In this document: in pieces, positions 6,716 through 61,656 of the stretch
Position numbering within the stretch: the first letter of the stretch is position 1
Layout of the letters: each line of letters begins with the position of its first letter
NCBI GenBank assembly: GCA_947561585.1
Contig: CANNZV010000426.1
Location: 542,414-606,413 of the forward strand
Source: Caprella mutica
Lineage: Eukaryota; Arthropoda; Malacostraca; Amphipoda; Caprellidae
Direction: 5' to 3'
DNA length: 64,000 bases
Program-made: the position numbers and the translations under genes
The notes under the pieces: model-generated
What the model was told of the DNA's origin: nothing
Databases searched by the model: none
The model's input: only the letters and a program-made list of their open reading frames with translations

Positions 6716-6881
6716 TTAAGTTTCTACTTCAATTTCACTGTCACCAAAAATCAAGATGGAGGTAATTGCCTTCAAACATTCAATGATGGCCGCTATATTC
6801 TCCTCTAGAGTAGTGTAGACTATTTTGTGCTGCTCAACAAACTGTGCAGCCTTGTGGATTGACTCTTCATTGTACAAATTC
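6716..6881 (-). CDS. Gene A exon 10: C-terminal helix and stop
   Basis: Acceptor TTTGACAG. The exon encodes about 54 residues with KIVYTTLEENIAAIIECLKA, matching KLVYTDLENDLANILVVLRE in gene B. This is probably an amphipathic or coiled-coil helix. The TAA stop is at 6718-6716. The tail after the conserved helix diverges between paralogues. Confidence 0.85.
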
Positions 6882-9800
6882 CTGTCAAATAAATTAAGCA
6901 ATAAAATATCAGCAGACAAAAGTTAGAAGTTTTCGGTATTTAGAGTACAATGATAATTGGTGCAAGAGATAATAGATTAAAATACAACATATAATGAGCC
7001 AAAAAAACTAGCTTTGGAAATCCTAATCTACACAGAAATTTAAATTAGTTTAATCAAATTAGTTTAGTAAATTGAAATTATGTTATTGAATTTCTCTATT
7101 AAACAAATTGAAATATTCATTTAAAATTCATTTGATGTACACCCATACATAATTTATTATATTATTTTGTGGAAAATAAAAATTAAGTTAGAGAAAAGTA
7201 ACTGCTGATCCTAAACCCATTCGCAAATCATCTCTATAAATGAACCTAATTGAACGGAAATTTATGAACTACAATTAATTAATAACATACGTAATAATTT
7301 CTTTAATTTAGTAAGGGTTTAACGCCTGCTTCGGAACCAAAGGCCATATCGCTGACGTCAAAAGGAAATTAAATACAAGGGACTAGAAGAAGTAGTCAGA
7401 AAGAAAAGTGGCTCCATGAACAAACTCACTTACCACCATCGGTGACAATGCTCATGGATGCAGAAAAGCTACTCCGTGAATGCAATCACTTACCAAGGAA
7501 TGTGACGAAACGGGACACAAGCACCGGTGGCTGCACTCACGGATGGAAGAGCAAAATGAAGAGGTGATAGTAAATGAAGCCTACGAGCCTACCTAACACA
7601 AAAATCTAAGACCTCGTAGTTGAAGAGCATAACCCTAGCGCTATCCTCTAAAACTGCAAGAAGCGTTAAAAAAATAATAAACATGGTAAAAATGAAAAAA
7701 AATATCCAAATTACAACAGTTTGGGGCCAACATGCGTGATAGAATGAAACAATTCAATGCGCAAAAATCATGGATTACCTCTACTACATTTCACTTAGAT
7801 TAATCAAGTCATGCAAATTTATAAATTATACTTACCATTCATTCGGCTGTGCTCCTGTCCAGATTAATTCCTGTTTCATTTTCAGTGTTATAGCCACAGC
7901 TGGGATGATTTCTTTATACAGAGAACCTAAAGATACCTTTCTATCGTTGATTAAATCAGGTTTCAAGAAGTCGGTAATTTCCTCCGAGTAAGTAACTTGT
8001 TTGTTTAACATTCTAAAATCTTTGTAAACAGATTGGTCGAACATTGCACCAGAAATGGCTTCATTGCCTTTAGTTTCACTGCCTTTAGCTCCTTTCTCTT
8101 TTTTTTTCTTAGTTTTATTATCTCCTGAGGGTAGTTCATCTGATATCTCACTGCTGATCAAAAACTTAAATGTATCCGGTTTGGAAGATTCCGCAGAATC
8201 AACCAGAATTGAAAACTCATCCTTTTTAGAATTTTTCTTTGGTTTTTTGTTTTTGCTTGTATTTCTTGACTTTGGTCTCTTGGGCGATTGTTCTTCTTCT
8301 CCGAACTCTTTAATCAAATTCACGGCTCTTTGGTCAGCATTTGTGGTCTTTTTGTTGTACTTCTCGAGCACGTAAGCGAGAAATAGAAGCCGCTTCAGTG
8401 TCCAATCCAATTGCATTCCAGGCTTTATGCATGGCACTTTGAGAAAAAGTTACCTATAATCATTTGTTTATAAAAAATATAGAAATAGAAAATCTACTAT
8501 GAATTTAGTTATTTATCAAGGAATGTGAATGATATGAACGCAAAGAAGAAAGTGAACAGGTAAATTCAGGTAATATATAATATCTCCAAAGCTATAATAC
8601 TAAAGATTGTTATCAGATAAAAATTATTGGGAAGCAAAGAGTTATGAAATTAAACATATCAAGCTATTGAAATTGAACACCAAAAAAAGTGATTGAAAGA
8701 ATATCATAATGCCCTTGTCTAGTAGATTTATAGTAGTGGTGTCCATGATGTTTAACTATATTACATCTTATCGCACCGAACATCAGATTAGTCTTATGTA
8801 ATCGAATAAATGAATGAAAAAAATGGTTCTCACTTGTTTTTCGGCAGACAAATCTCTCGTGAAATATTTTAGTGAAGTCCAAATAAAGTGTAATCACTGC
8901 TGTCAGCAAATCTAAATTGCCGGGGATGTGCTCTTCGAAAGCTTCTTCGTATTTCATCAGCACCGCAGTATTTACATGCCTGCAAAAATATCAGGACGAA
9001 TATGATATTGATACCATCTAAATAGGGATTTTGGAAATAAAAAGATCTGATTAGGGATATGAATTACAGAGCTGTAAGACGATTTAGTTTCTAGATTTTT
9101 AGAAATTACGACAGTTACATTATTGAAATATTTAACAGGTACTTCTATAAACAGAACATCTGATTTCATTTTACTTTTTTTTCTAATAAGGAGTAATGTT
9201 CCGTACCAAAATCAATATAATTTTGAAAAGAAACTTGATCAGCATGGTAAAGGTTTCATCACCGAGGCCGTAATAAGATCAAGTACAAGATACTCAAAGA
9301 AGCAGTCAGAAAGGGAAGCGGGTCCGTGAAAAGAGACTCAAGCATCGGTTACTTTACTCACGGATGGAAGAGGGAAATGAAAAAGTGAAGGTAAAAGAAG
9401 TCAACGAGCCTTCCTAGTAAAGAAAAAGTTAACCCAAAATGAAATAAACAACCCATAATCAAAATAACAATTTAGCCACAGTGATGTCCGGTATGACTAT
9501 GAGCTAAGCTTTGGGTAACATTTACGTTTTTACGATAGACTAACAATCTATCGTTAAAATATATACAGTTTGGGAAACAAAAATGTTTCCGCTTTTTCAA
9601 ATACTTGTAAATCGTTAAACAACAGACGAAAAAACTGTATATTGGTCTCTTTTTATCTGTCTTTTAACAGGTAAAATCTATCTATTATCAGGTAAAAACT
9701 ATTTTGAACTGATGAACACAGTTTAAGAAGAGGTAAGCAAAGAGTGAGGATGACTATTTTTTATCATTGCGCAAAAGTTATTCTTAGACCTAACTCTGTT

Positions 9801-12800
9801 ATTTTACTTAATAAAAGGCTGTGATTAAAAGGAAAAAAACAATATTATGGTAGACATTTTAATACAGTGTGTTCACACTTATTCCTTTGAAACTATTTTA
9901 AAATTGAATAACTTCAGTTACATTTTGATCTCATCGAAGTTTTCAATAGGAATATTCGTTCGTCGCTTGTTCATTGCATGGTTAATGCCCGCTTTAACTT
10001 GCATTTTAACGCCGCGGAAAAAAAGATCTTCTGAAAATGTGTTTACACTTGTGTTTTTTTTTATCGATGATGGAAAAATCACTTTAAATTTTTACTACGG
10101 CGATAAAAAAAAAAATGCATGTGTGAACACATTTTAAGAACAGCTTTTTTCCGCGCTGTAAAGAATGCAAGTGTGAAGCGGGCCTTAACCATGCAATGAA
10201 CAAGCGAAGAACGAATAGTGAAAACTTCAATGAGATCCATATGTAACTGAAATTGTTCTATTTCCAAATAGTTTATAAGGAAGAAGTGTAAGCACCCTGT
10301 ATTAAAATGTCTACCTTTATATTTTTCCTTTTTTATTCACTGCCTTTTAGTAATTAAAATCACAGAGTTAGCTCTAAGAATAATCTTCGCGCAATGACAA
10401 AAATAGTCACCCTCACTCTTTGCTTACCTGTTGTTTAACTATCTCCTTCAGTTCAAAATTGTTTTTACCTGTCAATAGTAAAAAAAGAGGCGGAGAAAAA
10501 AAAACTAAGATACAGTTTTTTCGTCCATTGGTTAACGATTTACAATTATTTGAAAAAGCGGAAACATTTTTGTGGCCCATACTGTATATTCTAATTTCTT
10601 AGTAAAATTAAACTCATGGATTTATTTAGACGATCCAAACCTAACTGACACAAAATTTCGTTACTAATCAAAAAGAATTAAAAATTTACACGATTGAAAT
10701 TCCAAAAAGGAGAATGTAACTTACTCAAAGAACAAAGGCCTTATAGGCAACAGAAAACCGATCATCAGAAGTTTCGAAAGACTGAATAGTTTCCAAGCAT
10801 TGGGAGTATTATCTCCTTTTAGGGCGTTATCATCGGAACTTGACATTGCGCTAATATTGTCAGATACATACTTCAAACTTTGAACTTTTCTCATCTGAAA
10901 AACATAAACGGTTCTTATTTGGTTAAAAGGAGTTCTATTCAACGGAATATTCATAATTTCGAGAGGTAATTAGCTGCTACTGTAAAAGAAATGAAATAGC
11001 AATTCATACGCTTACTTCTATTCTGATAAAATTCCCAAGTGTATTTATTTGACAGAAGTTTCTATCTCTTTCGTTCCTCATTTTCTCATTAAGAACCTAT
11101 AAGTTTCTCTAGTAAACTTAACTTAAGGATCTAATGTGAAAGAGCTGGTGGTCTTTCATATGTTAGTTGAAAGCATATTTTTCGAATTTGAATATTAATT
11201 TTGTTTTGAATTGCGGGTGGAAAAATTACGTTGTTTGATGTATTGGTTATTTATTGTATTACTAAATATTTTTTATTTGTATAAAATTTCTACAGATGCC
11301 CATCAGCACTAGTCTTGAATAGGCCTTCATGATTCCTTAGATTTCGAATATCAGTAGGCCTAATTACGATTGTTTCAATAAAAAATGTATAAGATCGAGT
11401 TTGAAGGTTTTTTGAGTGCTGTGATCACTTTGAATTAACAATAGAAATGAAAATTGTGACCAAATGACAGTTGGTCACAAATTTCACCCGGGTTTTCCAT
11501 CTTCGTTTCTGATGTTAAATAGTCATCTAAAATTTCAATGCTGCTTTTATCTTTCGAATTTATTTCATATTCCTTGTTTGTATCTTAATTCATACAACAT
11601 ACTTCATCCTTATTCTCGAAATCAATAGCCTTCATCACAAATCCATTAGCAACTTGCACTAAGAACGCATAGCACTTTGAAAAATTAACGAAGCCCGCCA
11701 TTTCCTTGGTTCTTATTCTGACTGGTAAGTCCATATCTTCAAACTTATATGTCTGAAATGTAAAATAATAAATCAAAGTGTCCACACTTTCAGATTCATG
11801 GGATGAAGAGAAATGTGCAGCAGAAATACTTACATTAAAGAACTTCATCCTCTCATTGGTAGGTAATGATCCGCTTAACAAGATAAGGGCATTCTCCATT
11901 TCAACGGCGATGATCTTGTAGGGGAGTTCTTTCTTATGATTCTTCGGACACTTTACTAAGTAGGAACCCAGTTCTTTTACTATATCGAACAATTTCTCTC
12001 TGTCACTCTTGTTTTGATACAGCCCCTTGCCGACTGAAATTTATAGAAGTGAAACAACTTAAAACATTACTATTCTTTAATATTACTTTATCATTTCAAT
12101 TATACATATAAGTGAATATATGGAAAGAAAGTTATTTCCTGCGTCATCTACTTATTATCTACTTATTACACGAAATGTAATAAGTAGACTGAAAGTAAGA
12201 GAAACTATATGACTGCCAATAGTAGAGCGCATACCTTCGAGGCTTCGCTGCCTCTTATAAATGATACCAAATTTCACGCAATTTGGTCGAATACTTTGAG
12301 TTATTGAGTTACAAATGACCTTGACAAATGAATCGCTCTCAAATTTTATCAGATGGTTCCTGTACATTGACAATCAATTTGGTTGAATACTTTTTGAGTT
12401 AAACGAATAACAAGATGATAAATAAATTAAGGAATACCGCCTGATGCATTACCTTCCACAATTTGCAAAGGTAAAGATGAGTTGTAGAGGGTTTAATCAA
12501 ACCAAAGTTGCGAGTTCAGAGGGGATACACGTATAAATGTAGAAACTTTACGTATAAATGTAAAACTATACGTATACAGGCATCCCCGCTTTAGTTACCA
12601 AATCACAACTATGTTTAGTTACCAAACGGTAACTAAAGCGAATAAAAGTAACAAGAAATTTATAATTGTCACTCCTCGATTATATAACTCATTTTCAATG
12701 AGTTATAGAACGAAATTTTGTTTTAGAGTTATTAGATTACTACGTATATGAGCATATTAATAATAATGATATACAACAGTCTTTCATTGTTTGTGACTGT

Positions 12801-15800
12801 GATGAAAAAGTTTAAAGTCGTGCATTTATTAAATGTTTTAAAATCCATCCAAAGCTTAACACTCACTCAGTATATGTGAGTGATTAATAGATACTTAGAT
12901 TTCTATAATTATTGTGCTACATTGAACAAACCGCAATTTTATGATCTATGAAATGTTTTTGGTAGTAGGGTATTATAAGTTCCAAGTTATTGGTTGGTTC
13001 TACAATTTCGGACACGTCAGAAAAGAAAATATTATAATTATTATTTAACTTCTATTCTAATTGGTATCATGGATACCAATTGAAATTTAAGTTAAATAAT
13101 GATAATTATATAAAGATTTTCACGTGTTCGAAAATATGGAACCGTGCAATAATACGGAACGAACCCTAAAATGAGACATGTTAAATTTATGAACCAATTG
13201 CTTCTAATAACCTCATCTGGATTATAATTTTGATGTTTTTTTTAGTTACCGTGAAATAAACACAAAAAATTGTCTCCGTTTTCTATGTCTACGAACGGTT
13301 CTTATTTCGAAACATGACTTGAAATAAGTACCACTTTTACTGAAGTGAGTTGTACTTAAAGTGAGGCCTGCCTGTAAACGTAAAACTTTACGTATAAACG
13401 TAGTAACCTAATAAATAAACGTAGAAGCTTAATATGGAAACGTAGAAACTTAATATGGAAACATAGAAGCTCAACGTAGATGTTTATCGTAGAAAGTTAG
13501 AAACGTTGCCAGGAAATAATTATCAAAAAGAGAATGACGGAGAAAAATGTGCTGCCACAATGAGTGCCTAAAAGCAACTGAGTGAATAGAATGTTAGTTT
13601 CGACTTTGGAGAATATCGGTAAGTCTCATACGGGTGCCGTTTTTTTTAAATCTCTGGCAATAGTGTCTACTTTGAGTATATGTTTAGCAAGAATTTATAG
13701 GTTTGTTTTCCAACCACCCAAGGTACAGTTGACAGAAGTGACATGAAATATTGTAAAATAATACAGTAATTTTTAGGCAATGGACTAATCTGACGTAGAA
13801 AAATAGTAGCAAGAATTAAATTCTTAAATTGAAATGATAAAATTCATGTATTTCTTAGATTTAGTAGTGGGATTTAAAAGTTCCCAATTGTTCGCGCGAA
13901 CCTGTTCCTAAAAATAAAAATTCTTCCTGGATTACAATTTTGGAGTAAAGCATACATAATGGATTTGGATAAATTCAAGCATTCATCTAGTATTTCACAT
14001 TATTCTAACGAATTGTCAATCTTGAGATATTTGGAATATGTTTGTAAATAAAATGATTCATTGAGCTTGTATACCACATACGCAAAAGTTGATATAATTC
14101 TACATCAACCGATGAATGTGAACGAACCTGTTGCTAGACAGTTTGAATCCCACCACTGTCAAAGTATGTATGGACGGTAGAGTGGAGGTTAGGTTATACT
14201 ATAGTGACTATACTATCCATTGTGCAAAATTATAGCAAAATAAAATTAAAGCTTCAAAATGTTTTAGAAGAAATATTTCATTGAGTCACAAAGTCTGACG
14301 AATTTTATGGAAATAAAATAGTTGATTATTCCCTAAGATTTTGTTGCTCCATACTAAAAACTATACATTATTAATTTTAATATACAGGGCAACAATCGTA
14401 ACTGTCAGATATTAGCATTATGAATGAACAAACGTAGTTAAATGGATAACAACAATATGGTACCAATCGGGAACTGAGCTGAAAACTCCAGGGTACAGGA
14501 ACATAAACGGGTATAGTACCTAGTAGACGACACAAAAATATGACGTCACCACAACAACACATTCCTTGTTTGTGACCGAGCGGCTCATAATTCTTCGTAT
14601 TTGCATGTTAATTTCGAGAAGTTTGAAGTCATTTTATAGGGGTTTCGTGCAAAAGAAAAACGGAAATGGCGATTGAACCTTAAAGTTGATTATATAGATA
14701 TAATTCAGGTGTGTTTTTATTGTTCATTTCTTTAACTTATCTCTAAAAAAATAGGGTCTTGAAAATAGGCTACCTAGGAGCCTAAACTAGTGCTAGTTAA
14801 CTGCTAAATTGTAGTTCCTATGAATAACAAATAAGAAAAAAAATAATGGAAATACAATTTAACCAATGCCTAGTTAGTAATTGATAAGAAATAATTCAAT
14901 TTATAAGTGATTAAGTTTAAGAAAATTTTTCCATGTTTCAAAGTGTGGTCAGAGTCGCCATTTTGAGTCACCCGGTGGTCACGTCAAACTATAGATTCAA
15001 TCAGCTGATTACCATACCCTATGTTACTGTATCCTGGAAAACTCCATTAAAGCTAAAAATACCAGCCTATGAAATTTTCATAAATTAGACAGAGTTAGAA
15101 GTCTGGGCAAACTTTCAATATAATTGAAATTGTTCAAGAAGGTATTTAATATATATTTTGGATGCAAATTTTTCAATGCATCTGGTTTTTTGTTATTCGT
15201 ATGAAACAGTTTATACCGAATTTTATCAAATCTTAGCTTCTTTCTAAAAATTGATATATAATACCTACTTTGTTTCGTTACTCACCCAAAGATTTGGTCG
15301 TATATCTAGCTTGTACAACCTTCAGCCAAATTTGTCTCGATGAAAGACTAAAATCAAACACCATGGTAGCACTGGTAGTCAGAAATTGTTCGGTAAACTT
15401 GTGAACATTAAAGGTAGCCGTAGGATTGAAATCATTGGAACCAGAGTCACCCGATTCAGCAGAGGACTGATTTCTCACAACTGAACTTGAACTTGTAGTT
15501 TCACGGGATTCACAGCCTATCACAGGCTGTTTTTTGAAAGATATTTCGTCGTCTTGCGCATCACTCTGCTCAGTGCTACCACCAGTAGATTGCGCACCAC
15601 TCTGCTCAGTGCTACCACCAGTAGATTGCGCACCACTCTGCTCAGTGCTACCACCAGTAGATTGCGCACCACTCTGCTCAGTGCTACCACCAGTAGATTG
15701 CGCACCACTCTGCTCAGTGCTACCACCAGTAGATTGCGCACCACTCTGCTCAGTGCTACCACCAGTAGATTGCGCACCACTCTGCTCAGTGCTACCACCA

Positions 15801-18800
15801 GTAGATTGCGCACCACTCTGCTCAGTGCTACCACCAGTAGATTGCGCACCACTCTGCTCAGTGCTACCACCAGTAGATTGCGCACCACTCTGCTCAGTGC
15901 TACCACCAGTAGATTGCGCACCACTCTGCTCAGTGCTACCACCAGTAGATTGCGCACCACTCTGCTCAGTGCTACCACCAGTAGATTGCGCACCACTCTG
16001 CTCAGTGCTACCACCAGTAGATTGCGCACCACTCTGCTCAGTGCTACCACCAGTAGATTGCGCACCACTCTGCTCAGTGCTACCACCAGAGGATTGCACA
16101 CCACTCTGCTCAGTGCTACCACCAGAGGATTGCACACCACTCTGCTCAGTGCTACCACCAGAGGATTGCACACCACTCTGCTCAGTGCTACCACCAGAGG
16201 ATTGCACACCACTCTGCTCAGTGCTACCACCAGAGGATTGCACACCACTCTGCTCAGTGCTACCACCAGAGGATTGCACACCACTCTGCTCAGTGCTACC
16301 ACCAGAGGATTGCACACCACTCTGCTCAGTGCTACCACCAGAGGATTGCACACCACTCTGCTCAGTGCTACCACCAGAGGATTGCACACCACTCTGCTCA
16401 GTGCTACCACCAGAGGATTGCACACCACTCTGCTCAGTGCTACCACCAGAGGATTGCACACCACTCTGCTCAGTGCTACCACCAGAGGATTGCACACCAC
16501 TCTGCTCAGTGCTACCACCAGAGGATTGCACACCACTCTGCTCGGTGCTACCACCAGAGGATTGCGCACCACTCTGCTCAGTGCTACCACCAGAGGATTG
16601 CGCACCACTCTGCTCAGTGCTACCACCAGAGGATTGCGCACCACTCTGCTCAGTGCTACCACCAGAGGATTGCGCACCACTCTGCTCAGTGCTACCACCA
16701 GAGGATTGCGCACCACTCTGCTCAGTGCTACCACCAGAGGATTGCGCACCACTCTGCTCAGTGCTACCACCAGAGGATTGCGCACCACTCTGCTCAGTGC
16801 TACCACCAGAGGATTGCGCACCACTCTGCTCAGTGCTACCACCAGAGGATTGCGCACCACTCTGCTCAGTGCTACCACCAGAGGATTGCGCACCACTCTG
16901 CTCAGTGCTACCACCAGAGGATTGCGCACCACTCTGCTCAGTGCTACCACCAGAGGATTGCGCACCACTCTGCTCAGTGCTACCACCAGAGGATTGCGCA
17001 CCACTCTGCTCAGTGCTACCACCAGAGGATTGCGCACCACTCTGCTCAGTGCTACCACCAGAGGATTGCGCACCACTCTGCTCAGTGCTACCACCAGAGG
17101 ATTGCGCACCACTCTGCTCAGTGCTACCACCAGAGGATTGCGCTCCACTCTGCTCAGTGCTACCACCAGAGGATTGCGCTCCACTCGCCGTAGAGTCTTC
17201 TTTAATAGATGGCACACCACCCAGGATAGAGTCATCTTCAATAGAGGGTACACCGTCTGTCGTAGAGTCACCTTCAAGACGTGACACACTGTTCTCCGTA
17301 GAGACACCTTCAAGGGATAACCTGTAGCTTGTAGTAGTATCAGGAGGTACATAGTCTAAATGTGCACCGCTCTCTGTCAAGACGCCTTCAAATGGTGCAC
17401 TACTTGCCGCAGTCATATCTTCACCAAATAGGGATTGCGCACCACTCTCTGAAGATGTGAAAGGATCTTCAATTATTGATAGCGGACGACTTGGAGGATT
17501 TGAGATAACATCAAAGGAAGTCGCACTGCTCCCTGACGAGACTCTTCCATCTGCAGTGCTAGGTCTGGAAGTATCCACTCCTTCACCTGCCGGAGCATTT
17601 CCGGAAGCCCCTTCTCCTTGACCTGCCGTGGCATTTCCGGAAGCCCCTTCTCCTTGACCTGCCGTGGCATTTCCGGAAGCCCCTTCTCCTTGACCTACCG
17701 TGGCATTTCCGGAAGCCCCTTCTCCTTGACCTGCCGTGGCATTTCCGGAAGCCCCTTCTCCTTGACCTGCCGTGGCATTTCCGGAAGCCCCTTCTCCTTG
17801 ACCTGCCGTGGCATTTCCGGAAGCCCCTTCTTCCTGACCTGCCGGGGCATTTCCGGAAACCCCTTCTCCCTGACCTGCCGTGGCATTTCCGGAAGCCCCT
17901 TCTCCTTGACCTGCTGTGGCATTTCCGGAAGCCCCTTCTCCTTGACCTGCCGTGGCATTTCCAGAAGCCCCTTCTCCTTGACCTGCCGTGGCATTTCCGG
18001 AAGCCCCTTCTCCTTCACCTGCCGTGGCATTCCCGGAAGCCCCTTCTCCTTGACTTGCCGTGGCATTTCCGGAAGCCCCTTCTCCTTGACCTGCTGTGGC
18101 ATTTCCGGAAGCCCCTTCTCCTTGACCTGCTGTGGCATTTCCGGAAGCCCCTTCTCCTTGACCTGCTGTGGCATTTCCGGAAGCCCCTTCTCCTTGACCT
18201 GCCGTGGCATTTCTGGAAGCCCCTTGACCTGCCGTGGCATTTCTGGAAGCCCCTTCTCCTTGACCTGCCGTGGCATTTCTGGAAGCCCCTTCTCCTTGAC
18301 CTACCGTGGCATTTCCGGAAGCCCCTTCTCCTTGACCTACCGTGGCATTTCCGGAAGCCCCTTCTCCTTGACCTGCCGTGGCATTTCCGGAAGCCCCTTC
18401 TCCCTGACCTGCCGGGGCATTTCCGGAAACCCCTTCTCCCTGACCTGCCGGGGCATTTCCGGAAACCCCTTCTTCCTGACCTGCCGGGGCATTTCCGGAA
18501 GCCCCTTCTCCTTGACCTGCTGTGGCATTTCCGGAAGCCCCTTCTCCCTGACCTGCCGGGGCATTTCCGGAAACCCCTTCTCCCTGACCTGCCGGGGCAT
18601 TTCCGGAAACCCCTTCTCCTTGACCTGCCGTGATGGGTCCGGAAGATGACCTATTAGCAGCTCGATTCGTAGCTTCAGTAGTAGTCAAAGTTGTACTTGA
18701 ACTCAAAGATGGAACATCGGATGATGAAATACGATAAAACATTGGGCATACTGGAAGAAATCGAAGCAAATTTTAAATATTAGAATAATATCCCATAGAA

Positions 18801-22685: not shown

Positions 22686-22779
22686 TTTTATCGGTATTTT
22701 TCATTTAAGCCTCTAAAGCTTTAGTTAACTATTACAAACATCATCAATGCAGGTAGGACATGCAGATAAAAAATAATTT

Positions 22780-23080: not shown

Positions 23081-23330
23081 TTTAAGTATAGTATATACCA
23101 TTAAATGATTTTCAATCTATCCCGCCTGCACGATCTGGATCATAATGTTAGTAATATTTACGGAGAAAACAGCTTAAAGGTAGTGAATGAACCATTCACC
23201 ATCTGGTTAATATTTCCTAACACGTAAATTATAGGTAAAGCTCTTAGAGCGCCCAGTACATGCACCGTAAAAGCGTTCTTTGTAACGATCAGCGTTCGTT
23301 GTAACGATACATTACAATCACGATTACAGC

Positions 23331-25260: not shown

Positions 25261-25265
25261 GATAG

Positions 25266-35029: not shown

Positions 35030-35034
35030 TCATG

Positions 35035-43038: not shown

Positions 43039-43046
43039 CTCATGAG

Positions 43047-44793: not shown

Positions 44794-45084
44794 CTCATGA
44801 GGATTCAATCACATAGTCTGACAAAGCTCGGTCAAATTTACATTTGGTTAATAAAATGGATTCACTTATTCATTAGTGAGCTAAGAAAAATTGAAGTTAT
44901 TGGAATATAAGGAGATGAGATTTATGAAACTTTTCAATATTGAACACTGATCTGATTTCGACAAATTTACATTAATCTGAACTTGGTTTGCATTTTACAA
45001 TAATTTTGGCAAGTTTTAGTGGGCAACGGTCTTCTCAATACCTATATTTTTATTTTCTATTGTTATTTTGAAGATATTTATTAG

Positions 45085-46648
45085 TAGGGTTGAGACAATA
45101 TGCACTGCATATTTCGCAGTGTATGCACATAAAAATTTAGTGCATATTCGCTTGAAATATGCGTTTCATAAAACGCATATGCAAAATATATGCATTTATA
45201 AAACGCATATACAAAATATATGCAGAAAATAATTTTAATTGAAAAAAATTAAACGTATTTCAGTTAAGTAGACATTTTAGATTTCCATCTATTTTTCGAA
45301 ATAGGCTGTTACTAAGAAGCCCATGTATTTTTCACCAAATATTTTTTTTATTAATTGTAAAAATAATAAAACACTGAGATGTAGAATGAAAGTTAATATC
45401 TTTAAATTGTCAATTTTTATATATTGAAGAACTTCTTATAAAGTCTGCTTCCAAGTACATTAACAAGTCATTAATATGAAGTATCTTTTATAGAGGTAAA
45501 GCTCGTACAGCGCCTGATCTTTAAACGGTCACCCACTAAAAAAGATCAAAATTATCCGTTCTTCCGACCATGCAAATCCTACAATGGCCCCTCAAATAAT
45601 ATTATTTATAATTTAACCAATATTTTATTAGTTTACCTAGTATCTAGTCAAACATTGATTATATTCAGAGGTAATACAATTTAAAACCAACACTTAACTT
45701 ATTGTTTTTTTCAGTAATTACATCTTTGTCAACCTATTCCTCCACGTTTTCTTTGATTAGAAAAGTTCTATACAAATTAAAAAGAGGTGTAACTATTCTA
45801 TATTATATAATAATATATATTTCATTTATTTACACCCAAAAAAAAAATTAAGATAGTAAATTAGTTAGTTTTATTTTGTTTTTGGTTTAATTAACGAAAT
45901 ATACCATCAATGAAAACTCCCAATTACAATTGGCCTTATTTCAAAGAAATTAGAACATATAAAGCTAACCTGAACGCATATCGTTGAGCATATAACGCTA
46001 ACCTGAACGCATAAAAAGCATATTTTAAGCATAAAAAAATATATTTGTAAGGCATAAAATGCATATATATAAAGCATAAAAGCCTTTTTATCAAGCTTAA
46101 AGCATAAAAGCCTAATTTTCATAAAGAATATTGTCACAACCCTAGTGATCACTTTTGAGATTCAATTTGCTCTATTGTTGCTGGAATTACTGAGAATGTT
46201 AAATCTATGAACGCAAGATATATTTTCATAATTTCTCTGCTCTGTAGAAGTTTTTGAAGTTCTCTCTAATAATTATCTGGAATATTTAGAAGCAGAGTTC
46301 AACCAAGTTCCCACCTCTTTATAACCTAATCTATAATATTTAAATTTTGAAGTAGAATAAAAATCTAGCTCTTATTCATTCGCCTGATGTTTATCATTTA
46401 TTTATGTAGAAGTTTATCATTTGAACATCGTTAATCAATTTATTTTAATAAACACTTTTTATATGTATATAAAATAGAAATTCCATGTGCAAATAGAAAA
46501 CGCATATGCAAAATAAAAAATGCATATGAATTTTCTATTTGCATATGGAATTTTTATTTGCATATGCATTTTAAGATTTGCATATGCTTTTTTTATATGC
46601 ATATGCATTTTTTCACCAATATGCAAGATATGCAAAGACACAACCCTA
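45085..46648 (-). mobile_element. Non-autonomous hAT element, copy 2 (inverted)
   Basis: Same family as the copy at 43047 but in the opposite orientation, with perfect 8-bp target duplications TTTATTAG (45077-45084 and 46649-46656). Interiors match along their length. It is about 180 bp shorter, partly because it has fewer subterminal 20-bp repeats. The two copies are 291 bp apart and can pair as a 3.6-kb hairpin. Confidence 0.88.
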
Positions 46649-47456: not shown

Positions 47457-47462
47457 TTTATT
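47457..47462 (-). promoter_or_regulatory. Candidate polyadenylation signal of gene B
   Basis: AATAAA on the minus strand about 140 nt past the stop codon. It is the first clear hexamer I noticed there, but the region is AT-rich. Confidence 0.3.
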
Positions 47463-47603
47463 TATAAAAGCTATTTTAAAATACTAAAATAAATAGAGAG
47501 TTTGTTCTTAAATTTAGGATATCTTGATCCAACGGGAAAACTACACCATATTTCAAAATTAAAGCACAGTTTGTACATTTCCATCCTTTCCTCAAAAATA
47601 GGA

Positions 47604-47748
47604 TTACTTTTCGAACTTTAAACATTCCTCAAGTTCACGTAGAACCACTAGTATGTTAGCTAAATCGTTCTCCAGATCCGTATAGACTAGTTTATTCTCC
47701 TGAAGATATTTGATGGCTTTTTCCACTTGCTTCGCAGTGAATAAGGTT
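47604..47748 (-). CDS. Gene B exon 10: C-terminal helix and stop
   Basis: Acceptor ATTTTCAG. Encodes VEKAIKYLQENKLVYTDLEN and a following Leu/Glu-rich helix, ending with TAA at 47606-47604. It aligns with gene A exon 10 from the start and is 7 residues shorter. Confidence 0.84.
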
Positions 47749-50700
47749 CTGAAAATAATTAGTAGATTAAAAACACAGTAAAGGGTATATAGGAATTTTA
47801 AATTAATTTAGTAGGGGTTTAAAGTCTGCTTCGGAACCAGAGACCATATCACTGACGTTAAAAGTAAATTAAGTACAAGTGACTGGAAGAAGCATTCAGA
47901 AAGTAAAGTGGCTCCATGAACAAAGTCACTTAACACCGTCGGTGACGATGGTCATGGACGCAGAAAACCTACTCTGTGAAAACAGTCACTTACCAAGGGA
48001 TGCGACAAAAATTGAGAGACACAGACACCGGGGACTGCAATAACGGATGGAAGAGGAAAATGAATAGGTGAGAGTAAATGAAGCCTACGAGTCTACCTAA
48101 CACAAAACCTAAGACCTCGTAGTTGAAGAGCATAACCCTAGCGCTATCCTCTGAAACTGCAAGTAGCGTTAAATAATTGATGAATATGGTAAAAATAAAA
48201 GAGAAAATTCATAATATTAATTCTTAAAACAGAGAAACTGAAGTACCTGAAATCTTTAAATTTTGGATAAGATTTGTAGATCTTTCTTTTGTTCATCAAA
48301 GTTTTATAGATGAATGGAATGATATTTTGGTACAATGTTCCGAGTGGTGTTTGTGGGTGGCCAACTACCAGATCTGGTTTGAAAACTTCTTTAAATTCTT
48401 TCGAATAGTTTTCTTTGTCATTCAGCTGTTTGAAATCTTCATATATAGCACGATCAAACACTGTCCCAATTTCCTTTATGGGCTTCAATTCAGTATTCTT
48501 CTCATCATTCTTAAGTAATCGGGAATTTCCCTCTTCCCCTTGTGAAAGTAATTTTGGATTTTTCAACGAACTATCCATCACAAATGTTTCCCTCTTTTCA
48601 TCTGGAACAGTCACAGATTCTTTGTCTTCGTTGACATTCAATTGTTTTTTCAGTTTGTCCGGCTTTCCTCCTTTACTCGATTTTTTTCTGTGCTTAGGTG
48701 AATCCACAGTTTCTTTTTTCAATTTATCTGGTTTCTTTGATTTCCCTCCTTTACTAGATCTTCTTCTCTTTTTAGGTGAATCCAAAGATTCTCCCATCGA
48801 TAGTATCAAATTGTCGGTTGATATCTTGGTTGCTTCATCAGCAATTTTGCTGCTGTACTTCTCTATCACATTTTTCAGGAAGAGGAGACGTTTCAAAGTG
48901 AAGTCGAGTTGCAGTTCTGGATTCTTCATAGAACCTTGCGGATGACGTAAGATATTAGTTTTTCCGACATATCAATAGCGCTAATTTTTCATTCTTAGTT
49001 GCTAAGATTATTCTAACATTTAGTCTCCAAACAGATTATCAGAATATTGTTATGCAAATAATAAATTTTCTTTAAAGACCAAAATTACATTTCAAAGTTA
49101 AGTACTAACATTATTTTAATTAATACCACCGTTATAATTCTTACCGTCCCAACGGAAATAGTTGCAGTAGAAATTGTAAGTGAAGTCAACATAAACAGCA
49201 ATCACAGTAGTTAGAGCTTCAAAATTGTTAGGCATTTTCTTGTCCATGATAGCCTCGTATGATTCTAATTTTGGAATATTTATACGCCTGAAAAAAAGAA
49301 ACTATGAAAAACTGACACGTTGATTAACCCATGGGATTATAGAGGATTTCAAACACCAAACAAGTTGTTTAGTGACAGGCCAAAGTATTTGGATAAAATT
49401 TTGGGATCGCGAATTTATAGTTGGTTTCCGAATCCGAACCCAAAATATTACCTAATTTGGTTTTGAACCTCCGAACGGCGAATCCGATTTTCAAACTTTC
49501 GATGAGAAAATTTGTCCGCGAAACAATCCGAACTTTAATTCTGATGAAAATTTTCAATCCTAAATTATATTCTTTAGCTTTCCTGATCTAAATTTAAAGT
49601 TTTCCCATTGGAAAAAATGTTTCAGATATCTACATCATTTATTAAATGAATTATCAATAAGAAGAAAAATATTACCTTATATAATTTCAAATTTGATGTA
49701 ACTTATTTGTGAGCTGAATTTAGAGATCGGCCAGCGGGCGGTTGCGTCAGTACATGTACTGTACATGTTCAACAAGTAAATTGAACAAGTTCAATTTTCC
49801 GTTTGAAACGTTCATCAGTAGTTAATTAGTTAATTTTTTATATTATCAAAATTTCCCTATGTTTCATTAAAGAGATATCAAATATTTAATGACTTGGCAA
49901 CCCTGAATATATCGGAAAATTGGGAAAGAGATATATCCGAAGTGCTGCGTGCATCGCCACAATAATTTCAAGTTTGGTAGTGTTCGTGTTTTTTTTTTCC
50001 CGGGATACGGATTAAAATAAAGACTTACTAACACACTGAAGTCTAAAATTTTTTTGATATCGGTTTAAACGAATTAGCGAACATTTATACGGAACACCCA
50101 ATTCTTATATTAAGTTATCTCTAGCTATAACCACAATGCCCACCTCTTACTTTGTACTATACAGTCTATACTTAAACAGAAAACAAAAAATGCATAGCTG
50201 AAAAGGTAATGCCTGTATAAGTAACCTAAATGCCTTGTTACACGGTGCGAGTTACTGTCGTGACAGTGGACAGCAGCTGTCCCACTGTACTCTCATGTCA
50301 GTAGCTTAATGTTCATAGCATTGAATTTCGATGACAGTTACTCTACTGATGCGGTCACACTGTGCGAGTAGCTGTACTACAGTAACTGTCTAGGCCAACT
50401 TTTATGTTTACTCGCACCATGTAACAAGGCCTTAAGACTAACACTAGAACAGCAAAACGAGATTTATTCTCCAAAACAGCCGCCGATGATCTAAATTTCT
50501 TCATATAGATATTAAAGCCAGGAAATGTCACTTTATCTAGCAATAAACAAAATCATTCTAATTTCAAGTGTTTGTCACCTTTTAAATGTTACACATAAAT
50601 CAATTACATTATTTTTAATACAGTATAGATTAAGATACTTACACACAAACCAATACTTTCAATGGTAGGAAAATAGCTATTTTCATTAACAAAGAAACGA

Positions 50701-53700
50701 GTGTGAAACGAGCGCATTCTTTGATCATTTTTTCGACGTGTCCATTCTCCAAATCCATAGCTTTAGTAATATATGAGCAAAAAGCAGTCAAGGCTTTAAT
50801 TTCTTCACTCTGAAAGTTGAAGAATTATAAATTAGCCCTCTTGAGATTTTGCACTTTTCCGTAACATTGATATTTATCATTCATTTAATTAATGAATTAC
50901 CTCCTTAACAACTTACTTCTCTAGTTCCGTATAATTCAATTGCTGTGTGAACTTGTGGTATAGTCGTTTGCATTAACACAGAATAACCCTGATAGAGCTG
51001 ACAGAAGAAACATATTTGACTGTTTAAGATGGAGCCTTTCTTTTGTATCTCGAATTCCACAGTCTGAAAGTATTTTGTTCAGAGTTACTGCTACAGAAAC
51101 ACAGCTGTCTATGAAAACATAGGCCAAAAATCATCTTAGATTTCAGTTACTTTATACAAATAACAAAAAGATGTTAACTAATCAAAGAGGAAGACATCCA
51201 GAAAAGAATGATAAAATAATTTACAAAGCATCCAGAGATAATTCTACAGAATGGAAAAGTTGTTACAATCATTTAATATCACCTTGCACACAGCTAATCT
51301 TTCTTTGGTGTGCAGTGATCCACTCAACAAAGCCATGGCGTTTTGAAGCTCTGTAACCAACATCATTCCAGGCAGTTCGTTAAACGTTTGGGGTGGTAGG
51401 TGGTTCACGCATTGGATCAGCCGTTCCATATTGTTTTTCAGATAGATTCGGCTTTCTTTGCTCTGAATCAATCCATTTTTAACTGTGAACCAAATGTACA
51501 TGTATTGGATAGGTAGAAGATTAAGCATAAAGTCCATATTTGAACGAAATTTTATTTAATTATCTCAATAAAAGATACAGAGTTGAGCATTATGCATATG
51601 TTCCGGGCAATTAAAGCCAAGGTTTTAGCAGCTCAAGTTTTTAAATTATAAATCTACAGTTTATTCCAACAATACAGAACCTCTCGGGGCGTTACAGGGT
51701 TTAAAAACGCTCAACGCACTCTTGAGAGTGCGAATTCGGTAAATTGCACGGAACACATACATTATTTATCACAAGTTCTAAAAGTTACGATACATTTTTA
51801 AATTAAACATAGTGTTTAAAGTCTGATTAAGAACCTAAAGTCATACAAAACTGTCGTCGAAAGAAAATTGAATGCAAAGTTCGACAGGAAAGTGTTCATT
51901 CGAAAACTACGAATATTTGAAGATGAAATTATGGTAAAATTTTAATGTTGAAAATTTATATGATTATTTGAAAATAAAACACAGTGGTTGCTCCAAATAA
52001 CAACTATAAAAAATACCTTTAAGAGATGCACTTCATTTTAATTACGTAATCTCACCTAAATTTTTCATATTAGATTTCGATCTTGAAACTTTGAGCAATG
52101 TATATTTCCCTAATAGATCAGAATCATTTTTCATAACTGCACAAGGAGTTAATTTATCCAAAAACTTGTTTACGTCAAATTTAGCCATGGGGTCAAATGG
52201 TGATTCGTCAGTAGTCTTGGAAAGCAGCTCTGAATCTATATTTTCCTTGAGGAAAATCTCTTCATCGAAGGTAAATTTTAAGGAATCATCCTTGCTCTCT
52301 ACATTACAGGATTTATCGTCTGGTGCAACCTTGTTCCTACTTGAGTTTCCAGGGAGTGAGGATGAATCTTTTGCAGATGCCCTCCTCTTTTTCTGCTTAA
52401 CATTCTCGGACACGCAACCACCTTCCGTCGACTCCTTCTTCTCTGGAGGCCCGCCGTCACCTTCCGTCGACTCCTTCTTCTCTGGAGGCCCGCCGTCACC
52501 TTCCGTCGACTCCTTCTTCTCTGGAGGCCCGCCGTCACCTTCCGTCGACTCCTTCTTCTCTGGAGGCCCGCCGTCACCTTCCGTCGACTCCTTCTTCTCT
52601 GGAGGCCCGCCGTCACCTTCCGTCGACTCCTTCTTCTCTGGAGGCCCGCCGTCACCTTCCGTCGACTCCTTCTTCTCTGGAGGCCCGCCGTCACCTTCCG
52701 TCGACTCCTTCTTCTCTGGAGGCCCGCCGTCACCTTCCGTCGACTCCTTCTTCTCTGGAGGCCCGCCGTCACCTTCCGTCGACTCCTTCTTCTCTGGAGG
52801 CCCGCCGTCACCTTCCGTCGACTCCTTCTTCTCTGGAGGCCCGCCGTCACCTTCCGTCGACTCCTTCTTCTCTGGAGGCCCGCCGTCACCTTCCGTCGAC
52901 TCCTTCTTCTCTGGAGGCCCGCCGTCACCTTCCGTCGACTCCTTCTTCTCTGGAGGCCCGCCGTCACCTTCCGTCGACTCCTTCTTCTCTGGAGGCCCGC
53001 CGTCACCTTCCGTCGACTCCTTCTTCTCTGGAGGCCCGCCGTCACCTTCCGTCGACTCCTTCTTCTCTGGAGGCCCGCCGTCACCTTCCGTCGACTCCTT
53101 CTTCTCTGGAGGCCCGCCGTCACCTTCCGTCGACTCCTTCTTCTCTGGAGGCCCGCCGTCACCTTCCGTCGACTCCTTCTTCTCTGGAGGCCCGCCGTCA
53201 CCTTCCGTCGACTCCTTCTTCTCTGGAGGCCCGCCGTCACCTTCCGTCGACTCCTTCTTCTCTGGAGGCCCGCCGTCACCTTCCGTCGACTCCTTCTTCT
53301 CTGGAGGCCCGCCGTCACCTTCCGTCGACTCCTTCTTCTCTGGAGGCCCGCCGTCACCTTCCGTCGACTCCTTCTTCTCTGGAGGCCCGCCGTCACCTTC
53401 CGTCGACTCCTTCTTCTCTGGAGGCCCGCCGTCACCTTCCGTCGACTCCTTCTTCTCTGGAGGCCCGCCGTCACCTTCCGTCGACTCCTTCTTCTCTGGA
53501 GGCCCACCGTCACCTTCCGTCGACTCCTTCTTCTCTGGAGGCCCACCGTCACCTTCCGTCGACTCCTTCTTCTCTGGAGGCCCACCGTCACCTTCCGTCG
53601 ACTCCTTCTTCTCTGGAGGCCCACCGTCACCTTCCGTCGACTCCTTCTTCTCTGGAGGCCCGCCGTCACCTTCCGTCGACTCCTTCTTCTCTGGAGGCCC

Positions 53701-56700
53701 GCCGTCACCTTCCGTCGACTCCTTCTTCTCTGGAGGCCCGCCGTCACCTTCCGTCGACTCCTTCTTCTCTGGAGGCCCGACGTCACCTTCCGTCGACTCC
53801 TTCTTCTCTGGAGGCCCGACGTCACCTTCCGTCGACTCCTTCTTCTCTGGAGGCCCGCCGTCACCTTCCGTCGACTCCTTCTTCTCTGGAGGCCCGCCAT
53901 CACCTTCCGTCGACTCCTTCTTCTCTGGAGGCCCGCCGTCACCTTCCGTCGACTCCTTCTTCTCTGGAGGCCCGCCGTCACCTTCCGTCGACTCCTTCTT
54001 CTCTGGAGGCCCGCCGTCACCTTCCGTCGACTCCTTCTTCTCTGGAGGCCCGCCGTCACCTTCCGTCGACTCCTTCTTCTCTGGAGGCCCGCAGTCACCT
54101 TCCGTCGACTCCTTCTTCTCTGGAGGCCCGCCGTCACCTTCTGTCGACTCCTTCTTCTCTGGAGGCCCGCCGTCACCTTCCGTCGACTCCTTCTTCTCTG
54201 GAGGCCCGTCGTCACCTTCCGTCGACTCCTTCTTCTCTGGAGGCCCGTCGTCACCTTCCGTCGACTCCTTCTTCTCTGGAGGCCCGCCGTCACCTTCTGT
54301 CGACTCGTTCTTCTCTGGAGGCCCGCCGTCACCTTCCGTCGACTCGTTCTTCTCTGGAGGCCCGCCGTCACCTTCCGTCGACTCGTTCTTCTCTGGAGGC
54401 CCGCCGTCACCTTCCGTCGACTCCTTCCTCTCCAGAGTCCCACCGTCACCTTCCGTCGACTCCTTCCTCTCCAGAGTCCCACCGTCACCTTCCGTCGACT
54501 CCTTCCTCTCCAGAGTCCCACCGTCACCTTCCGTCGACTCCTTCCTCTCCATAGGCATGCCACTACCTTCTGGCAACTCTTTCCTCTCCATAGGCATGCC
54601 ACTACCTTCTGGCAACTCTTTCCTCTCCAGAGGCCTGCCACTACCTTCTGGCAACTCTTTCCTCTCCAGAGGCCTGCCACTACCTTCTGGCAACTCCTTC
54701 CTCTCCAGAGGTACGCTACTACATTTTTGAACATTCGCTAATTCCTTGCGTCTTATTTGTCGTGGGCCAACTGCATAATGATCTGGACAAACTGAGAAAA
54801 AAAGAGATTATGAGCGCTTACATTTTTTGGGGCAATGACTATTTATCAGAAAAGATAGATTCTGTTAATTTATTTTTCTAAAAAAATAGTACAAAATCCA
54901 TTATATCTAGAAAATGACTAAAAAACGTAATTGCTTGAGAAAATTAAAATTATTTCTGCATATATTGTTAGCTCTGAAAATAAAGGCCGTAAAACAATTA
55001 AGTTTAAAATTAAATGTACAAAAGCTGTGAATACCTTTTCTTAAACCTGTAAATGAAAATACTCTAAAAACGCAAGTTAAAATACAGACATTACCCGCTT
55101 TAATTACCAAATCACGAATGTTCAATTACTAAACGGTAACTAAAGCGAGGAAAAGTAACAAGAAATTTATAATTGTCACTCCTCGATTATATCTCATTTT
55201 CTATGAGTTATAGTGAAAGAAAATTAGTTTTAGAGTTAGAGTACTAAATTAGCCTATTAATAAAGTTGTTCAGTGTTTGTGACTGAAAGTTTAAAGTTGT
55301 GAATTTATCAAAGGATTTAAAATTAAACCATAGCTTACTCTCACTCAGTATAGCCTAGGTGAGTTAGATACTTAGATTTCTATAATTGTTTTGTTACATT
55401 GAACAAACAGTAATTTTATGCTATATGACCTATTTTAGGAAGAAGGGTACCAAGTTCCAAGTTATTGGTACGTCCTACATTTTTGGACACGCCCAAAAAG
55501 AAATAATAATCATAATTATTATTCAACTTCTATTCAAATTGGTATCATGAATACCAATTGAAATAAAAGTTAAATAATGATTATTATATAGAGATTTCAT
55601 AGAGTTATGATAAACTACTCTAGAAAAATAAATGATAAACTACTCTAGATAAACTAGATTTTAACGTGTTCGAAAATATAGAACCGTGCGATAACACGGA
55701 ACTTACCCTAAAATGGGACTGTTGAATTTCTAAACCAATTTCATCCAATTTAACCTCATCTGGATTACAATTTTTACCCTTTCCCATATTGGCTACATGA
55801 TAAGTTTACAGAGGAAAATTTTCTTACTCACAATAGTATTATCTAGTCTAATTTTTATTAAAGTGAAAAAGGATTGCGATGAGAATTAATAACACATCTT
55901 TAGTATTTTAATTACACAAATTAAAAATGTTATAAATTTCTGTCCATTAGTAGAAGAATGACCTCTGTATAAGTCTGTCGAACATTTTAGAAACACCTTG
56001 TTATAAATGTGAAAAGAGTGTGAATCAGGAAGAATCATTCCAATAAACTTCTAAAGCAGTAATATAGTCCTTGTTGATGAAATGGATGAAAGACAATCAA
56101 TATGAATCATCTAGCAGACAGTATCTGGTACCTGTGGGCATCTAGTGAGCTGAACATAGTAGTCGTAAAGGCTAAATATACTGATAGTTCTCATTTAAAA
56201 GTAGGATGCCAATAAAGTCCTTCATTTCCTTGATGTCAGTAGAAAACGATGCACATTCAACTTTCTACCTGGCATAAAGTTAGGTTCAGTATATTAAATC
56301 ATCAAGCAGATCCATGGTCACTTCTTTAATTGAAATATTTGATTAGCGTCAGAAGAGTTTATGGTGGAATGGAGAATAATTTTGTGTTGGAGGATGGTTA
56401 ATATTGACAAACTATCAATTATTTTCACCAACCTTTCGTGAATGAAAAGAAGATGCAGCACTTTAAAAAAATAAAATAAAATATGTGGTCTAATAGTGTT
56501 TTGTGTTCAAATTATGGTTAAAATATCTTCAAAAATTAATATTCTATGTTAAATATCTACAATATTTTCAATAGAGTTAGGTATTTGTATTCTATCACGC
56601 ATGGGCAATATGTGTTCAGAGATGAAGCGGGCAATGCATTCCGTCTGGGAATAGTGTAGATACTGATGGAACAGTCAAGAAGCCCATTCGGGATACACCC

Positions 56701-59700: not shown

Positions 59701-61656
59701 ATAATTCAAATCTTTCTTTTTTCTAAAATACAAATAAAATCCCTTTAATAAGTTTGTATTTTTGTACAGTAGTACAGTCATTTTTTGTTTTAACAATATT
59801 AATGTCAAATTATTGCTTAGTAAGAATAAAGTATATCGTGTGACATTGCAATGTTCAATAAAATCTAATAATGGAAATATATAATTTTATATAGAATTAT
59901 TTCTTACTAAATGCTATCGGTAGACTGCGCCACAATCAGTGGCGCCATCTTGTAAATAAACCAATTGAGATAAGTTTCTATCTAGATTCTAGCTCAAGTG
60001 AAGAGATTGCTTTTCTTTAAACTATTACTTGTGTACGAATTCACATAATCTTTTCACCATTTTGACGCAAACAAAGGTTGATTACTGCATTCATAAAATA
60101 ATATAAAAACAACAAACATACTCACGTACTCAGTGCTAATGTTTCCGCTAGGTGTCGTTAATTTTATTATACACTTTTGTATGAACATTTTAAAAATAAT
60201 TCAGCATTCAAATACTACATAACTAAATATTTTGAATCGATTTAAAACTAATTTGGCGATTGTTTAATTTTGACTTTACTGTCCCTTTAAGAATTGGTGC
60301 TAAAAACTTCGCTAATTTATATGATGGAGTATTGTATGATTTAAACTTAAATTTATTTTTGAAGAGAGATTTGTGAATAAAGGCAAATGAAGGTTTTTGT
60401 ACTATTTCTTTAGAAAAACAAAGTAAATACTTTGTTTAATGACGAATAACTTTATAAGAAACCAAAACTCACTTGTGTCCTTTGATGGGGCCGAAACACC
60501 AGGTAAATACCGATCAATCAAGTTCCCGTATCGACGAGTAACATTTCCAAAGTCATCCAGGCAATCACAAGTTTCCTGATGATCAATCTCGTTAAAGTGA
60601 CTAGTAGCATATACAAGGAAGATTTTAGCCACGTATACATAGTAACTAATGTAGTTTCCAAGATAAACAAATTTACTTTCATCTCGACAGACAAAACGAA
60701 GTAGATTCATAGCTTGATTGCAGTATGCATTGCACATCACATACCTGTACAGAAAGCAAGAAAAAGAAAATACAAACACAGTTATTATGCTAACCGGAAA
60801 AACACATTTGATATGAAATTCACGTTACCATTTCAATTCAAGTATTGCATACCTTCGACTGTGATAGCTGGTACTTGCTAATTTAAGAAACATCAGTAGC
60901 AATGTATTCATAAGTAGGTCATTATCGCTGTCTGATTTCTCCGAATCCTCCAACAAATATTTTAATGATGGAATAGGGTATTTTTTTGCTCCGATAAGAA
61001 TAAACATAATCGGTTTGCTAATTTCTTTGTCAGTTACTTTCATCTTAATTCTGATGAAGCTAACAGTTTGGTCGAGTAAATCTTTTCTGAAGCGATTTAG
61101 CACACGTCTATCTTCATCAGTCGGAGATTTCTCTTTGGCGTCGTACACTCCAAGAAGTCTGTGAAAGTTTTCATCCAAATATTTCTCGTATTGTTCATGA
61201 TGCTTCGGAAGAGTGAATATTTTGTGCAAATCCGAGTTAAAGTTTGTAGGCGGACTGAAATATAAAACAATTAATATATTAAGTCGACATTCATCGAAGG
61301 CAATTGGGATAAATCACATCTCATTCAAAACTAAAATAAAGAAATTTCAAAAGTTTAAGAAGGGACATCGAAAACTCTAGGTTGGATGTCAATATAGTCT
61401 TAAAAAGATTATCAGTGTAAGTTTAATGGCCTTTAAATTTGTTTTACATTATTATTATCTTTTGAAAGGGTTGAAAACCACTGCAGTATGTAGCCAGCGA
61501 TTTAATAAATATATATACGTATCAGAATAGCTTCTGGATCAGTCGTTTCATTTTTAAGCTATTCAAAACAACAAGGAGGCGCAGGCCCGTGGTATCTTAC
61601 TTCGGAGTGAAAATTAAAGCTTTTAAAATGTTATTAGAAAAGCTAACGCTGTCCAT
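47604..61656 (-). CDS. Gene B: 10-exon paralogue of gene A, 39-bp repeat exon
   Basis: Exons, 5' to 3' on the minus strand: 61656-61601, 61254-60853, 60744-60473, 54791-52056, 51482-51283, 51063-50917, 50809-50643, 49287-49145, 48934-48247, 47748-47604 (stop TAA). The joined length is 4956 nt, exactly 1652 codons. Intron phases equal those of gene A throughout. Residue similarity to A is clear in exons 2, 3 and 5-10 but absent from the repeat part of exon 4. Domain order: N-terminal Cys/Tyr helical module (1-244), Glu/Lys/Gly/Pro repeat exon (244-1156), C-terminal helical module (1156-1651). The start ATG (61656) was chosen because it gives MDSVSFSNN, a length and phase match to gene A exon 1. 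It is the least certain exon. I do not recognise the family. Confidence 0.83.
47811..48215 (-). repeat. SINE-like dispersed repeat, gene B intron 9
   Basis: Same family and same orientation as the copy at 7314, and in the equivalent intron of the paralogue. It contains AGCGCTATCCTCTGAAACTG and CGTAGTTGAAGAGCATAACC. It is probably an insertion older than the gene duplication. Confidence 0.65.
48247..49287 (-). CDS. Gene B exons 8-9: helical core with duplicated basic segment
   Basis: Exon 8 (49287-49145) contains FEALTTVIAVYVDFTYNF. Exon 9 (48934-48247, 688 nt) contains LQLDFTLKRLLFLKNVIEKY, then two successive basic segments, SPKKRRRSSKGGKSKKPDKL and SPKHRKKSSKGGKPDKLKK. These look like an internal duplication absent from A and resemble nuclear localisation signals. 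An acidic linker follows, then LGTLYQNIIPFIYKTL, the counterpart of LGSLYKEIIPAVAITL in A. The donor is AG/GTACTT. Confidence 0.85.
50225..50436. mobile_element. Palindromic MITE in gene B intron 7
   Basis: TGCCTTGTTACACGGTGCGA at the left, and TCGCACCATGTAACAAGGCC at the right. The interior hairpin contains ACAGTGGACAGCAGCTGTCC. It is about 200 bp with no coding potential. Confidence 0.7.
50643..51482 (-). CDS. Gene B exons 5-7: start of C-terminal helical module
   Basis: Exon 5 (51482-51283, 200 nt) contains LQNAMALLSGSLHTKERLAV and uses a weaker GTGATA donor. Exon 6 (51063-50917, 147 nt, phase 0) starts TVEFEIQKKG and is Cys/Gln-rich (ICFFCQLYQGYSVLMQ). Exon 7 (50809-50643) encodes EEIKALTAFCSYITKAM and the hydrophobic run FTLVSLLMKIAIFLPLKVLV, aligned to the hydrophobic run in A exon 7. 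Introns 5 and 6 are short (219 and 107 nt). Confidence 0.84.
52056..54791 (-). CDS. Gene B exon 4: 2736-nt repeat-coding exon
   Basis: Acceptor TTTTCTCAG, donor G/GTGAG, phases as in gene A. It begins CPDHYAVGPRQIRR (A has CPMFYR), runs through about 58 13-residue units, then a unique acidic/Ser segment with a basic patch (KQKKRRASAKDSS), and ends FDVNKFLDKL (A has FNVHKFTEQF). The exon is therefore homologous to gene A exon 4 at both edges, with a different repeat in the middle. The repeat region is dense in Glu, Lys, Gly and Pro and should be disordered and strongly hydrophilic. Confidence 0.85.
52420..54712 (-). repeat. 39-bp coding minisatellite of gene B (STEGDGGPPEKKE)
   Basis: About 58 tandem 39-bp units in frame. 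There is a clear gradient from the protein N-terminal side: LPEGSGRPLERKE and LPEGSGMPMERKE units first, then STEGDGGTLERKE (3 units), then STEGDGGPPEKNE (3 units), then a long near-uniform run of STEGDGGPPEKKE. Almost every unit carries a GTCGAC hexamer. Rare single-base variants (GDVG, GDDG, GDCG) sit in pairs or singly, as expected from local duplication. Confidence 0.96.
55085..55780 (+). mobile_element. 0.8-kb TA-flanked transposon, copy 3, truncated, in gene B intron 3
   Basis: Starts CAGACATTACCCGCTTTAAT and follows the other copies through the TTGGTATCATGAATACCAAT hairpin and CCTCATCTGGATTACAAT. It then stops before the right terminus. It carries a small internal duplication (GATAAACTACTCTAGA). 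Confidence 0.72.
57981..59442. repeat. 14-bp satellite, about 104 units, in gene B intron 3
   Basis: Tandem AAATCTAATTCTTA over 1462 bp. I see no substitution in any unit, which implies very recent expansion or a homogenised or assembly-extended array. It lies within the 5681-bp intron 3 of gene B, between the N-terminal module and the repeat exon. Stops occur in all frames, so it is not coding. Confidence 0.97.
60473..61656 (-). CDS. Gene B exons 1-3: N-terminal Cys/Tyr helical module
   Basis: Exon 1 (61656-61601) is short with a GTAAGA donor. A weak acceptor (TTGAAG) ends 20 nt before the ATG, mirroring the 22-nt leader in gene A. Exon 2 (61254-60853) is 402 nt, the same as in A, and ends SDNDLLMNTLLLMFLKLA then YHSRR. 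Exon 3 (60744-60473) opens RYVMCNAYCNQAMNLLRFVC and contains VYVAKIFLVYATSHF and CDCLDDF. The four cysteines shared with A are in register, and B has one extra Cys after MCNAY. Intron 2 is 108 nt and, unlike that of A, contains a stop in frame. Confidence 0.8.

Follow-up and report, generated by a model that had tools for sequence, protein, structure and literature searches.

A predicted tandem pair of diverged ten-exon genes in Caprella mutica with a common exon plan and unlike repeat exons

Two long genes lie on the minus strand of a 64,000-nucleotide stretch of the genome of the amphipod Caprella mutica (NCBI GenBank assembly GCA_947561585.1, contig CANNZV010000426.1, positions 542,414 to 606,413 of the forward strand; hereafter the window), and they raise the question of whether they descend from one gene, how fast they have diverged and what kind of protein they encode. 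A preliminary description had held that the two, here called A and B, could be reconstructed from end to end as ten-exon paralogues with identical intron phases, that their family could not be placed, and that their divergence suggested fast evolution.

We rebuilt both genes from splice sites, which in this window are eukaryotic, and from reading frames, and then joined the exons, giving predicted models. Gene A spans 21515 to 6716 and gene B 61656 to 47604, with ~26 kb between them, and the ends first described (the stop end of A at 6716 and the ATG of B at 61656) were recovered exactly. Each gene has ten exons without an internal stop, and the joined coding sequences, 5619 nt in A and 4956 nt in B, are both divisible by three and contain a single, terminal stop. 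GT was found at 18/18 donors and AG at 18/18 acceptors, the sites having been selected on that basis. The intron phases, re-derived here, are 2,2,1,1,0,0,2,1,2 in A and B alike (9/9), as had been claimed; were phases independent, nine matches would arise with a chance of (1/3)^9 = 5e-5, a figure that can serve only as a rough guide because the exons were partly picked to match. In gene A, introns 2 (20663-20740, 78 nt) and 5 (11753-11833, 81 nt) have lengths divisible by three and carry no in-frame stop, so that either, if retained, would insert 26 or 27 residues; in gene B, a stop interrupts intron 2.

The relation between the two genes was assessed exon by exon. With the N- and C-terminal parts as queries against the window, arrays masked, tblastn found the partner gene at exons 2-3 (expectation value, E, 1.6e-46), 9 (E 7e-19), 5 (E 8e-6) and 8 (E 1.4e-5); it gave no cross match between A and B for exons 1, 6, 7, 10 and the end of 4, and elsewhere in the window nothing under E 0.3. 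Global alignment of each exon pair against 300 shuffles, exon 4 being represented by its last 75 amino acids, gave Z scores of 1.0, 21.5, 22.7, 7.2 and 11.1 for exons 1 to 5 and of 4.1, 3.9, 10.5, 18.7 and 9.8 for exons 6 to 10; seven exons were counted as well supported. Exons 6 and 7 were also compared with phase-matched candidate exon pairs found between exons 5 and 8 by simple splice-site rules (32 pairs). Taken alone, exon 7 shares the first rank with two rival pairings (32) and exon 6 ranks fourth (23); taken as a chain, the proposed pair tops the seven chains listed. Across the joined modules the two proteins are 36% identical, with the exon plan unchanged. Phases, tblastn matches, shuffle scores and the chain of exons 6 and 7 all support a paralogous pair with a common exon plan, as first described, and the homologous exons lie in like order, with the same intron positions and phases, on the same strand and near each other, as in tandem duplicates. 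On these sequence grounds, the predicted genes A and B are tandem duplicates.

A candidate extra exon at ~48180-48100 in B and 7660-7590 in A, alike in the two genes and partly open, was rejected as an interspersed repeat, because the B copy has 11 further matches in the window, A's copy among them, and because exons 9 and 10 connect in frame when these stretches are left out. Copies of an interspersed repeat lie in like orientation in intron 9 of both genes (7303-7730 in A, 47803-48215 in B), with members of the same family at 35079-35478, 37381-37727 and 2401-2745. Since the two intron copies are 86% identical, as against near-saturated fourfold sites in the genes, and since A's copy is nearer to one at 37376 (89%), they would most simply be independent insertions rather than relics of the duplication.

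The age of the pair bears directly on the rate at which it has changed. Over 759 aligned codons, mismatch at codon positions 1, 2 and 3 was 0.49, 0.38 and 0.61, and among fourfold sites at conserved residues 53/82 differ (0.65, compared with 0.73 expected if independent). The Nei-Gojobori method (NG86) gave a nonsynonymous divergence (dN) of 0.65, a saturated synonymous divergence (dS) of 3.4 and a dN/dS of ~0.19, from two sequences only; in 5/10 single exons dS could not be estimated, itself a sign of saturation. With position 3 the most divergent and fourfold sites near saturation, the pair is old and under purifying selection, and an old duplication evolving at ordinary rates would explain the divergence. 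Fast evolution of the pair is thus not borne out for the aligned modules, and the claim stands for the exon 4 arrays only.

Fast turnover is clear only in those arrays. Exon 4 carries two 36-nt arrays in A and one 39-nt array in B, with 27, 45 and 51 units, respectively, by strict pattern, all of low complexity and rich in Gly, Ser, Thr and Glu. The repeat exons stand at 55% (A) and 59% (B) GC amid AT-rich surroundings, and both contain long antisense open frames, a consequence of the repeat period.

Searches for relatives covered Pfam, NCBIfam, PHROGs, PDB, and viral and prokaryote genome contigs, none of which amounts to a full eukaryote protein catalogue. No significant match was found among Pfam, NCBIfam and PHROGs profiles (best E 0.016, scoring 15.3 bits where the cut-off is 123.3) or among PDB chains, whether by single protein or by profile (best E 0.11); viral contigs gave 22 and 600 pattern matches and prokaryote contigs 137 and 74, with 0 relatives in either. 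Words from the array, module and satellite sequences were not found in a literature search. The family could likewise not be placed here, and "undescribed" means only without a match in these libraries.

We propose that one ten-exon eukaryotic gene was duplicated in tandem long ago and that both copies have been kept under protein-level constraint. The product would most likely be intracellular and mainly alpha-helical. One conserved module would be encoded by exons 2-3 and a second by exons 5-8 together with the first part of exon 9; a long flexible spacer, encoded by exon 4 alone, would connect them, and simple units of 12 or 13 residues would have been amplified within it independently in each copy. 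Leucine-rich, helix-like patterns are seen by eye in exons 2-3 and 5-9, and structure models made for exon 2 and for the region of exons 2-3 came out all helix, weakly suggesting such a fold; the N- and C-terminal modules show no mutual relation (hhalign probability 0.1%). Inspection by eye and hydropathy showed no evident signal peptide at the modelled N-termini, no signal-peptide program having been run and exon 1 being uncertain. The basic, lysine-rich stretch with SP-[KR] sites in exon 9 suggests nuclear targeting or nucleic-acid contact. The protein may thus act as a two-ended scaffold, each end binding partners and the spacer setting the reach. Our leading reading, offered tentatively and with somewhat less than even confidence, is of a helical scaffold inside the cell, probably in the nucleus, in which a replaceable repeat spacer separates two binding modules.

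Several observations weigh against the exon models or against this scaffold. The exon junctions are predicted from DNA sequence alone, and for exons 1 and 7 the top shuffle scored above the real alignment (21.0 against 4.5 and 18.5 against 17.0, respectively). The mean predicted local distance difference test (pLDDT) scores of the two structure models, 38.3 and 46.9, are too low for the helix assignment to be trusted, and the longer model takes in 26 intron residues by read-through. Basic stretches, being common, do not prove nuclear location, and the libraries searched yielded neither a relative nor a fold to anchor a function. The synonymous excess in the arrays is marginal (14/33 distinct variants against ~0.27 expected, p 0.04); this count covers the three main arrays and becomes 15/39 if the B array's short 5' part is added, and from array 1 of A it uses 18/29 units, 11 with >8 mismatches having been left out, probably owing to a register shift by a short unit. 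As exon 1 is uncertain, a leader on an upstream exon outside the models is possible. Finally, a hydrophobic stretch in exon 7 (Kyte-Doolittle 19-residue mean 1.55 in A and 2.29 in B) could be a membrane segment; comparable peaks occur in exons 2 (1.60) and 10 (1.71) of gene A.

Four other explanations were weighed. A and B might be fast-evolving conflict genes, acting in meiosis, at the centromere, in host-parasite contact or as effectors, in which sequence races under selection and the exon plan stays; it is to this that the fast evolution first proposed would point. The low identity over an unchanged plan and the turnover of the repeat exon agree with this, as does the uneven identity among exons, with exon 6 least alike (12/49) and exons 7 (14/46), 10 (14/47) and the end of 4 (21/73) near 30%; however, the near-saturated synonymous sites and the excess of change at position 3 are those of a constrained old pair, and a rate is not obtainable from two sequences, so that we consider this account unlikely. 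A secreted structural or mucin-like protein of the glue, silk or cement type, with its leader on an upstream exon and the repeats as its working part, would suit the composition and the many units of the arrays, the unsupported exon 1 and the acceptor-like TTTCTACAG directly upstream of the gene A start codon. Yet the modelled N-termini show no evident leader, no upstream coding exon shared by A and B was found (best E 0.03) and the non-repeat modules are the most conserved parts, which leaves such a protein decidedly unlikely. A membrane-anchored or organelle protein is improbable to a still greater degree: the exon 7 stretch is aligned in A and B, but its value in A is borderline, buried helices look alike and exon 7 is among the weakest exons. 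That one copy or part of a model is non-functional or mis-spliced, as a decaying duplicate or through wrong exons 1, 6 or 7, is highly improbable given no stop or frameshift in 5619 + 4956 nt despite near-saturated fourfold sites.

Ancient duplication in tandem, accompanied by turnover of the repeats within a single exon, is a well-known and ordinary kind of event. Going beyond it, the helical scaffold proposed above could represent a so far undescribed family of eukaryotic proteins in which the two binding modules are strictly kept, the spacer exon loses its tandem repeats time and again and gains others in their place, and paralogues differ in reach and charge, not in plan, an extension that we regard as doubtful. 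If confirmed, the pair would offer a clean natural comparison, with like plan and modules and with spacers unlike in period, sequence and charge within one exon, and the role of the spacer and the speed of its replacement would become testable. Exon phases helped to recover this old paralogy at 36% identity.

Coordinates of the predicted exons, arrays and AATAAA motifs of genes A and B in the window
Feature	Position	Strand	Support
Gene A exon 1 (start codon)	21466..21515	-	
Gene A exon 2	20741..21142	-	
Gene A exon 3 (YVMCNAY block)	20394..20662	-	
Gene A exon 4, repeat exon	15286..18750	-	
Tandem array 1 in A exon 4, 36-nt unit GQGEGASGNATA	17578..18632	-	
Tandem array 2 in A exon 4, 36-nt unit STEQSGAQSSGG	15554..17186	-	
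Gene A exon 5 (LLSGSL block)	11834..12033	-	
Gene A exon 6	11603..11752	-	
Gene A exon 7	10725..10894	-	
Gene A exon 8 (DFT block)	8834..8979	-	
Gene A exon 9 (LQLDWTLKRLLFL block, lysine-rich stretch)	7836..8436	-	
Gene A exon 10 and stop	6716..6881	-	
AATAAA, 34 nt past gene A stop	6676..6681	-	
Gene B exon 1 (start codon)	61601..61656	-	without homology support
Gene B exon 2	60853..61254	-	gene model, tblastn, alignment
Gene B exon 3 (YVMCNAY block)	60473..60744	-	gene model, tblastn, alignment
Gene B exon 4, repeat exon	52056..54791	-	aligned to A over its final 75 aa
Tandem array in B exon 4, 39-nt unit ESTEGDGGPPEKK, 5' part diverged (LPEGSG units)	52419..54722	-	
Gene B exon 5	51283..51482	-	gene model, tblastn, alignment
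Gene B exon 6	50917..51063	-	
Gene B exon 7	50643..50809	-	
Gene B exon 8	49145..49287	-	gene model, tblastn, alignment
Gene B exon 9 (LQLDFTLKRLLFL block, lysine-rich stretch)	48247..48934	-	gene model, tblastn, alignment
Gene B exon 10 and stop	47604..47748	-	gene model, alignment
AATAAA, 141 nt past gene B stop	47457..47462	-	

The window has a high AT content, with 26-35% GC across most of the 2-kb steps lacking large arrays, and carries many interspersed repeats; Rfam and tRNA scans of it gave no matches. An almost perfect 14-bp satellite of 104 copies occupies 57981-59442 within intron 3 of gene B. Between the genes lie a broken reverse-transcriptase frame with the look of a long interspersed nuclear element (23286-24814, plus strand; RVT_1 E 6.4e-21), a 19-bp tandem array of ~51 copies (26608-27584), the later part of which is open in two plus-strand frames, and a large inverted repeat resembling a foldback element (43325-46470), with arms of ~1.4 kb that are 87% identical and abundant TGCATATGCATTTT-like motifs.

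Among known systems, the bicycle effector genes of aphids resemble A and B in that paralogues are recognised by a kept exon plan despite diverged sequence (PMC9168663). According to that paper, bicycle genes average ~17 exons, with nearly all of the internal ones in phase 2, and carry CYC motifs, and a related cluster has N-terminal signal sequences, whereas A and B have ten exons, mixed phases and no leader seen. An exact CYC motif occurs in 0/2 proteins, with a single loose C-Y-C spacing match in B, and with phases mixed and the motif absent from both proteins we rejected bicycle membership as that account describes it. The leucine-rich, helix-like patterns recall ARM/HEAT-like helical-repeat scaffolds, from which A and B differ in having no significant Pfam match and mutually unrelated modules. 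Two-module proteins with an expanded tandem-repeat linker, to no named member of which a sequence relation was found, have in common with A and B their conserved flanks and a fast-changing, low-complexity middle contained in one large exon.
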